The position numbers were made by a program, and so were the translations under genes. A DNA stretch of 64,000 bases from Sulfitobacter geojensis (GTDB taxonomy: Bacteria > Pseudomonadota > Alphaproteobacteria > Rhodobacterales > Rhodobacteraceae), in NCBI RefSeq assembly GCF_000622325.1, contig NZ_JASE01000005.1, forward strand, positions 1,364,001 through 1,428,000, read 5' to 3'. Positions 32,365 to 60,699 of this stretch are shown one piece after another. The notes under the pieces are model-generated. The model did no database searches, was not told the origin of the DNA, and was given only the letters and a program-made list of their open reading frames with translations. Numbering within the stretch: position 1 is the stretch's first letter; each line of letters opens with the position of its first letter.

Positions 32365-32736
32365 TTAGCGCGGTTTGTTACTGTCGATCCAGCGTGACAT
32401 CAGGGTGCGGTCGCGAAAACACTCCGGCGGCACCTCACTGCGTTTCAGCCGCGCAATACGTTCGGCAAACCCCACTTGTTTGGAGGAAGGATATTCCGAA
32501 AACCGCCCTTGCGGGGCGGGGGGCTTATGCGCGTCGATCCACTTGGACAGGGCCGCACGGTCTGCGGCGATGTTACCCGGCAGCGGTTGTTTCGACTTTG
32601 CCGCTAGCGTTTTGGCATAGGCCAGCTGTTTCTGCGTCGCCGGCAACGGCGCGGCCGCTTGCTCGGCGTTGGGCTGCACGGGCGTCGCCCCTTGGGAAGG
32701 AGAGAACAGACCGGGAAATGTTGGTTGAAAAGACAT
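32365..32736 (-). CDS. tandem topoisomerase III C-terminus-like motif protein
   Basis: This 123-aa protein has an unstructured Pro/Ala/Gln-rich N-terminus (1-32) and two related 39-residue units about 50 residues apart: 34-72 (QKQLAYAKTLAAK...DRAALSKWIDAHKP) and 84-122 (SKQVGFAERIARL...DRTLMSRWIDSNKP). The K-Q-x3-(F/Y)-A-x-x-(I/L)-A...P...D-R-x2-(L/M)-S-x-W-(I/L)-D pattern resembles the small repeats at the C-termini of some alphaproteobacterial topoisomerase III and other plasmid DNA proteins, from memory only. It has a good AGAGGAGC ribosome-binding site and a LexA-type box in its promoter, pointing to a DNA-damage role. No enzyme domain is present. Confidence 0.75.
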   Translation of the reverse strand: MSFQPTFPGLFSPSQGATPVQPNAEQAAAPLPATQKQLAYAKTLAAKSKQPLPGNIAADRAALSKWIDAHKPPAPQGRFSEYPSSKQVGFAERIARLKRSEVPPECFRDRTLMSRWIDSNKPR

Positions 32737-32766
32737 CGTATGCTCCTCTTCTTAACGTTGGTTAAG

Positions 32767-32795
32767 GTATAGAACATAAGTGGAACAAATTCAAG
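32767..32795 (-). promoter_or_regulatory. sigma-70 promoter with LexA (SOS) operator in spacer
   Basis: On the minus strand TTGAAT (32795-32790) and TATACC (32772-32767) are separated by exactly 17 bp. That spacer contains GTTC-N7-GTTC (on the + strand GAAC-ATAAGTG-GAAC at 32773-32787), the LexA recognition pattern known for Rhodobacter and other alphaproteobacteria. The -10 ends about 30 nt from the ATG at 32736. LexA bound here would occlude RNA polymerase, so the small gene should be induced by DNA damage. Confidence 0.7.
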
Positions 32796-60087: not shown

Positions 60088-60699
60088 TCAGGGATCAAAT
60101 GGGGTGTTCAGCGCATGTTCGACCATGAACAACCGATCTTGGCCGTAAAACATATCGCCCTCAACGAAATAGGTCGGAGAACCGAAGACCGAACGCGCGA
60201 TTGCTTCTTCGGTGTTGGCGCGATGCTGTGCCTGTATCTCTTCGCTTTTGGCCGCCTGCAACAGCGCGGCACCGTCCAGACCTGTTTCGCGGGCCAGTTC
60301 CGTCAATACGGCAGCATCGGCAATATCCGCATCGTCGCGCCAATGGGCCTGCAAGATCGCGCGACTGAGCGCGCTGGCATCTGCACCTGCAGCGATGATC
60401 GCACCATTGGCCAGTGTCAGCGGATTATCATGAAACGTCGGACGGTGCCGCACCATTGGCAAATCGCGAAGCTGCGCCCAACGCACCATCTCGCGGCCAA
60501 AGAAATAGTCGATATGCGCCTGTGTCCGCTCCTTGAACCCGCGGCCACCTGCCGCCGCCATGACCGGCGCGAAATCGAAAGGCCGGTGAATGATCTTCGC
60601 GCCAGTTCGGGTCGCGATCCGGTCCAGTTCCCATGCACCGAGATAAGCATAGGCCGAATGGGCTGAGTAGAAATACTCAATGGTTTTTGATGTTTGCAT
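60088..60699 (-). CDS. DsbA-family 2-hydroxychromene-2-carboxylate isomerase-like protein
   Basis: This 203-aa thioredoxin-fold protein begins TIEYFYSAHSAYAYLGAWEL, the position where isomerases have a serine/aspartate rather than DsbA CxxC. FGSPTYFVEGDMFYGQDRLFMVEHAL is the cis-Pro and C-terminal signature. Family members use glutathione to isomerise 2-hydroxychromene-2-carboxylate in aromatic degradation; other GST-kappa-like roles are possible. The ATG at 60699 follows AAAGGACTGAC. It is divergent from the ECF sigma gene. Confidence 0.88.
   Translation of the reverse strand: MQTSKTIEYFYSAHSAYAYLGAWELDRIATRTGAKIIHRPFDFAPVMAAAGGRGFKERTQAHIDYFFGREMVRWAQLRDLPMVRHRPTFHDNPLTLANGAIIAAGADASALSRAILQAHWRDDADIADAAVLTELARETGLDGAALLQAAKSEEIQAQHRANTEEAIARSVFGSPTYFVEGDMFYGQDRLFMVEHALNTPFDP

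Follow-up and report, generated by a model that had tools for sequence, protein, structure and literature searches.

A small marine-bacterial gene with very probable induction by DNA damage encodes a stand-alone relative of plasmid-type topoisomerase III tails

A short open reading frame (ORF) of Sulfitobacter geojensis is preceded by what looks like a LexA operator placed inside a promoter, which raises the questions of whether this gene belongs to the SOS response and what its product of 123 amino acids could contribute there. In this study, we analyzed the gene within a stretch of 64,000 nucleotides, in the following referred to as the window, and compared its promoter, its product and its neighborhood with those of relatives on chromosomes and plasmids.

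The coding sequence is located on the minus strand at positions 32365-32736, as read from the sequence and from homologues and codon-position differences, and encodes P0001, a basic protein of two units. Its ATG start codon at 32736 follows the ribosome-binding site GAGGAG (32743-32748, minus strand) and a promoter consisting of the −35 hexamer TTGAAT (32789-32794), a spacer of 17 nt (32772-32788) and the −10 hexamer TATACC (32766-32771), the end of which is 29 nt from the ATG, all on the minus strand. The LexA box GTTCCACTTATGTTC (32772-32786, minus strand) occupies 15 of the 17 spacer bases. The original prediction had described exactly this arrangement, TTGAAT-N17-TATACC with GTTC-N7-GTTC in the spacer and a ribosome-binding site before the ORF, and direct re-reading of the sequence confirmed both. 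In homologous promoters the TTG of the −35 hexamer is kept, and the majority form of the −10 hexamer is TATAT. The upstream neighbor is a radical-SAM gene with TRAM and UPF0004 domains, which we read as RimO-like, and the downstream neighbor is a haemolysin III-like gene (both Pfam). Searches of the 64-kb window with ARAGORN and Rfam (gathering threshold) gave no match.

The 5′ leader contains the stretch TTAACCAACGTTAA (32752-32765, minus strand), in which two TTAA tetramers are separated by a gap of 6 bases and not of 7. TTAA-N7-TTAA is the spacing of the CtrA box, and near relatives have a CtrA-box-like TTAA-N7-TTAA here; in total, 7 of 80 homologous loci (L123, L125-L129, L185) carry it downstream of the LexA box and ahead of the start codon. 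In one Sulfitobacter clade, LexA and CtrA may jointly control the gene.

GTTC-N7-GTTC, or GAAC-N7-GAAC when read on the other strand, is the target of alphaproteobacterial LexA. A match to such a short motif could be due to chance, and the plain counts fit this explanation: the window contains 2 sites where 2.07 are expected, and the bare motif is not enriched genome-wide, with 134 sites versus 167 for the reversed control. When a T before the second GTTC was included, 42 versus 32 sites were counted in the genome. Since the occurrence is close to expectation in the window and there is no enrichment in the genome, the motif match alone is insignificant, and conservation of the box was therefore taken as evidence. 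The other site in the window (60106-60120, plus strand) is located inside a 226-aa ORF of the opposite strand and looks like a chance occurrence.

GTTC-N7-GTTC was found upstream of the gene in all 80 homologous loci fetched, which are the nearest 80 of 522 relatives, overlap in part with the 58 genomes of the genus discussed below and, being related by descent, are not independent of one another. It also stands upstream of all 46 delimited family ORFs in a set of 49 loci, one of which (L076) was counted with a start upstream of its likely start; L037 and L039, which are outside these 46, carry the box too, and L072, a broken gene copy, has none within the stretch searched. An order-wide search added 22 family loci (L098-L119), 18 of which belong to other genera; the box is present in all 22, and plasmid copies likewise retain it. 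Alignment of the 80 promoters gave a profile of approximately cTTGaaaaTGTTC(c/t)....(a/t)TGTTCTATAt, i.e. −35 region, box and −10 region with a 17-nt spacer, in which the −35 TTG is conserved to 84/84/78% and the −10 TATAT to 91/79/69/60/78%. A minority of relatives depart from this profile, such as Tateyamaria L151, where TTG is absent at the place of the −35 hexamer. Two boxes are present in 16 of the 80 loci, with one GTTC common to both in the examples read. As every intact family copy examined has the upstream box, a mere chance match is hardly credible.

In the same genome, boxes of this form stand before lexA, recA and mmcB; the lexA product possesses a LexA DNA-binding and an S24 domain. 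A further box precedes an ORF ahead of two genes, one for a Y-family polymerase and one of the dnaE2 type; Pfam gave no hit for this ORF, which we read as imuA by its position and sequence. Comparison with the recA, lexA and imuA motifs, as the original prediction had suggested, yielded the same GTTC-N7-GTTC/GAAC-N7-GAAC spacing. The 123-aa gene thereby shares its promoter operator with the alphaproteobacterial LexA regulon (recA, lexA, imuA-imuB-dnaE2, mmcB). In the direction of the gene, the box reads GAAC-N7-GAAC at recA, lexA and imuA, unlike at the 123-aa gene; the mmcB promoter, with TTGCAA followed by the box, has the same layout as that of the 123-aa gene. PMC6473078 describes GTTC and GAAC consensus groups of LexA sites and predicts LexA sites at lexA and recA of Dinoroseobacter. 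Conservation of the box and the boxes at recA, lexA, imuA-imuB-dnaE2 and mmcB strongly support the predicted LexA control. Judged from these comparisons, the 123-aa gene is almost certainly controlled by LexA and very probably induced upon DNA damage. Two other sites were noticed on the way: GTTC-N7-GTTC in an AT-rich stretch of the own genome about 500 nt upstream of an mraZ-like ORF (L092, 1501-1515), and GTTC-N7-GTTC before a 108-aa ORF adjoining a recombinase-like gene (L087, 1501-1515), where the stretch examined gave no Pfam match.

For analysis of the product, 70 homologues were tried in a codon comparison, 7 of which had another C-terminus and were excluded. Because the last 44 codons differ from those of the 63 remaining homologues at codon positions 1/2/3 in 458/262/1367 cases, the ORF is judged to be under purifying selection. 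An AlphaFold2 model based on 58 sequences (whole chain: mean pLDDT 82.2, pTM 0.53) predicts two helical units, or pairs, with high confidence (block mean pLDDT 82-97), whereas the mean pLDDT per 10-residue block is 50-55 for residues 1-30. Accordingly, codons 1-31 (32644-32736, minus strand) were assigned to an N-terminal tail, the first approximately 30 residues of which are predicted to be disordered and which includes FPGLF at residues 7-11 (32704-32718, minus strand). From the model and from hhalign, unit 1 comprises residues 33-72 (32521-32640, minus strand) and unit 2 residues 82-122 (32371-32493, minus strand). Two related repeats of 39 residues had been claimed; hhalign aligned the units over 40 columns with an E-value of 1.1e-13 and a score of 56.9, whereas none of 100 column-shuffled controls scored above 16.8, so that on this evidence the two units are homologous to each other. 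The protein is basic (pI 10.2, charge +8.6), as is the family (median pI 10.1, 51 members); both units are positively charged (+4.8 and +3.5), and the N-terminal tail is slightly acidic.

Domain and structure databases contributed little. Among the members scanned, none was seen to reach a Pfam or NCBIfam cut-off, the best NCBIfam E-value for 25 members was 0.027, and hits to other families below threshold (TyeA, TfoX_N, U-box, Arc-like, PopD) were dismissed as noise. Foldseek against the PDB returned nothing at an E-value of 0.001 or better (best 1.5), and the best hit of a PDB sequence search, with an E-value of 0.28, was regarded as chance. Among viral models, Foldseek matched an Aeromonas phage protein (E 2e-4) with a low TM-score of 0.32, as well as short stretches to single units. 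DUF3072 (PF11272) matches 15 of 58 family members and covers unit 1 in both members looked at; with 13.3 bits for the window protein and 25.7 bits for L123, which has the best E-value (1e-5), these matches fall short of the cut-off of 27.5 bits. A distant kinship of the family to DUF3072, which is unmentioned in the literature searched, is possible from these scores.

The original prediction had likened the two units to the C-terminal repeats of topoisomerase III and proposed an HMM comparison with such tails. In this comparison, the family profile aligned with five plasmid-type topoisomerase III tails with a probability of 99.4, an E-value of 5.1e-21 over 92 columns and a score of 115.7; the maximum in 100 column-shuffled controls was 19.5. 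The likeness is real, and the profiles demonstrate that the 123-aa protein is homologous to the C-terminal tails of topoisomerase III of the plasmid (TopB/TraE) type and collinear with them; these tails have two homologous units of about 40 residues in the same order. Single matches point the same way: by tblastn, a Variovorax plasmid gene annotated as DNA topoisomerase (E 7e-9, 37.9% identity); topB genes on Xanthomonas plasmids (E 3e-4 for the best one listed); an Ancylobacter topoisomerase adjoining virB11, with a weak match (E 0.1) to one unit; and a 772-codon frame with Topoisom_bac and Toprim domains in a genome of the same genus (G024, E 1.3e-5). The L073 enzyme carries PF01131 and PF01751. 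In contrast to these enzymes, the 123-aa protein stands alone: Pfam found in it neither the Toprim nor the type IA topoisomerase catalytic domain, in agreement with the predicted lack of an enzyme domain, and its gene has a LexA-type promoter.

Genomes that lack a topoisomerase III-grade match also possess the gene. Such matches, four in number with an E-value of 1e-114 or better and none above the curated cut-off, were limited to 3 of the 58 genomes of the genus, while 57 of the 58 contain the 123-aa gene. Other topoisomerase matches were far weaker (245 bits or less versus 384 or more), and two of these, which were inspected, we read as TopA. The module therefore lives without topoisomerase III in nearly all of the 58 genomes. 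This bears on the idea that the protein belongs to topoisomerase III as a genuine accessory subunit, supplying or competing with the tail of the enzyme. Collinear and homologous tails would be in line with such a role; however, the survey of the 58 genomes disfavors a dedicated topoisomerase III partner, and according to their C-termini the three topoisomerase III-grade enzymes read (L213, L214, L215) already have two units of their own. We regard this role as very unlikely. Of the predicted accessory protein, the homology to topoisomerase III tails has thus been substantiated, and an accessory function for topoisomerase III itself has lost ground.

With regard to distribution, all 54 genus genomes with at least 90% completeness and at most 5% contamination contain a homologue, and 71 of the 80 loci retain at least one neighbor present in the window, e.g. 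rimO or the haemolysin III-like gene. In a sample of the order, a match was obtained for 62 of 195 genomes, representing 33 of 87 genera; two of the matches are weak, one of these within an 871-aa frame. In a sample of the class, the 5 matches in 289 genomes comprised two from the own genus, two frames of topoisomerase length and one frame of 153 aa. No relative was detected in phage records by tblastn at an E-value of 0.01. At an E-value of 0.001, 167 plasmid records matched, some of these being topoisomerase tails; the stand-alone plasmid copies listed are labelled hypothetical protein or are unannotated. In four of six neighborhoods of stand-alone plasmid copies examined, helicase, toprim, RadC, DUF932 or ArdC-like genes adjoin the copy. 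The Sulfitobacter, Gemmobacter and Martelella plasmid copies (L203, L207, L211) have a conserved arrangement, being divergent from a large gene for a helicase/methyltransferase or for a strawberry notch protein and having toprim and DUF2493 genes nearby. The Pseudosulfitobacter plasmid copy is near a zincin-like metallopeptidase gene, read by us as ArdC-like, and the Ruegeria and Octadecabacter copies have different neighbors. A 150-aa protein of another alphaproteobacterial family (L120, 642-1094, minus strand; E 5.5e-7) has one unit and no Pfam domain above the cut-off.

We propose that LexA, when bound to its GTTC-N7-GTTC operator between the two promoter hexamers, would block RNA polymerase, and that cleavage of LexA after DNA damage would release the promoter. 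The small basic protein then made, with its two helical 40-residue units, would bind DNA, with replication intermediates that are single-stranded or gapped as its probable substrates, and would serve as a targeting or accessory factor for repair or replication proteins other than topoisomerase III. DNA binding fits the pI and charge of the protein, and its role as a DNA-binding accessory factor is put forward tentatively, as a suggestion drawn from sequence. For the whole reading, an SOS-induced accessory protein that binds DNA or targets the fork and represents a free-standing topoisomerase-tail module, we estimate a probability of about 0.5.

The main alternative is a modulator of the SOS response that acts by binding proteins. 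DinI and PsiB are small proteins acting on RecA, and the 123-aa protein might similarly use its units to bind RecA, SSB or another repair protein; small size and SOS control would suit this, as would the plasmid copies, which lie among genes read as typical of plasmid establishment regions. The strongly basic character and the homology to the tail of a DNA enzyme weigh against such a modulator, neither the DinI nor the PsiB family appeared among the NCBIfam, Pfam or PDB sequence results, and we consider it improbable. SOS regulons often include a cell-division inhibitor or growth-arrest protein such as SulA, SidA or DidA, and a small protein under LexA control invites this comparison. Here too the tail homology speaks for another function; moreover, the sequence is basic and looks hydrophilic, with no evident membrane segment by eye, and PADLOC-DB gave no match for 25 members, which leaves a division inhibitor distinctly unlikely. 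YebG of Escherichia coli, a small SOS protein under LexA control and annotated as DNA damage-inducible, was hinted at by two weak HMM matches: PRK10061 for one of 25 members (E 0.13) and PF07130 for the Variovorax topoisomerase tail (E 0.082). PF07130 (YebG) had no match in the own genome (G000) at an E-value of 0.001. Profile-profile comparison with 26 YebG sequences, namely that of E. coli and those from 25 loci out of 30 fetched (5 were unmatched by the sequence pattern), gave an hhalign probability of 0.6% and an E-value of 0.1. Homology to this gammaproteobacterial protein was rejected on this basis as extremely unlikely, and E. coli YebG has no profile similarity to the 123-aa family.

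For the preferred reading of a DNA-binding accessory protein, the N-terminal tail offers a speculative addition. Among 70 chromosomal-type relatives, 61 contain P[GDNSA][LIMVF]F and 35 contain Q..LP[LIV], versus 1.6 and 0.5 in shuffles, respectively, controls that overstate significance as the relatives are not independent. The second motif has the Q-x-x-L-P-[LIV] form of the N-terminal clamp-binding motifs QFKLPL in Caulobacter HdaA and QLSLPL in E. coli Hda (PMC3836487); in contrast to HdaA and Hda, the 123-aa protein has no AAA+ domain. Peptides regarded as marks of sliding-clamp binding in a disordered segment were those of the QxxLPL or QL[SD]LF type. The disordered N-terminus of many relatives, with motifs resembling sliding-clamp-binding peptides, might speculatively dock the protein at the fork via the clamp. 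The window copy retains FPGLF and has the degenerate QGATPV and QPNAEQ in place of Q..LP[LIV], and plasmid copies of 97-98 aa are missing the N-terminal tail; a clamp-binding N-terminus is therefore a lead and not a finding. In its widest form, the family would be an SOS effector, so far unnamed, of roseobacters and plasmids, namely the freed targeting tail of a mobile topoisomerase III, which is produced in response to DNA damage, docks at the clamp by its N-terminal peptide and, by binding single-stranded or branched DNA with its two units, directs enzymes of repair, restart or topology where forks have stalled. This picture in full is unlikely.

The literature searched contains no description of the gene family, which the LexA comparative-genomics paper PMC545464 may list, and the available parts of PMC6473078, PMC9044938, PMC7305329, PMC7140829 and PMC3836487 neither name the gene as a member of the LexA regulon nor report that DNA damage induces it. 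The 123-aa gene is an addition to the known LexA regulon that is built from an existing, uncharacterized module. Thereby, a conserved, unnamed gene family joins the SOS response of a widespread group of marine bacteria. The tail of a nucleic-acid enzyme occurs here as a free, separately regulated protein on chromosomes and plasmids, and because it is free-standing, the function of the tail itself is directly testable. A gene for such a tail without the enzyme suggests a new helper protein in DNA repair or replication.
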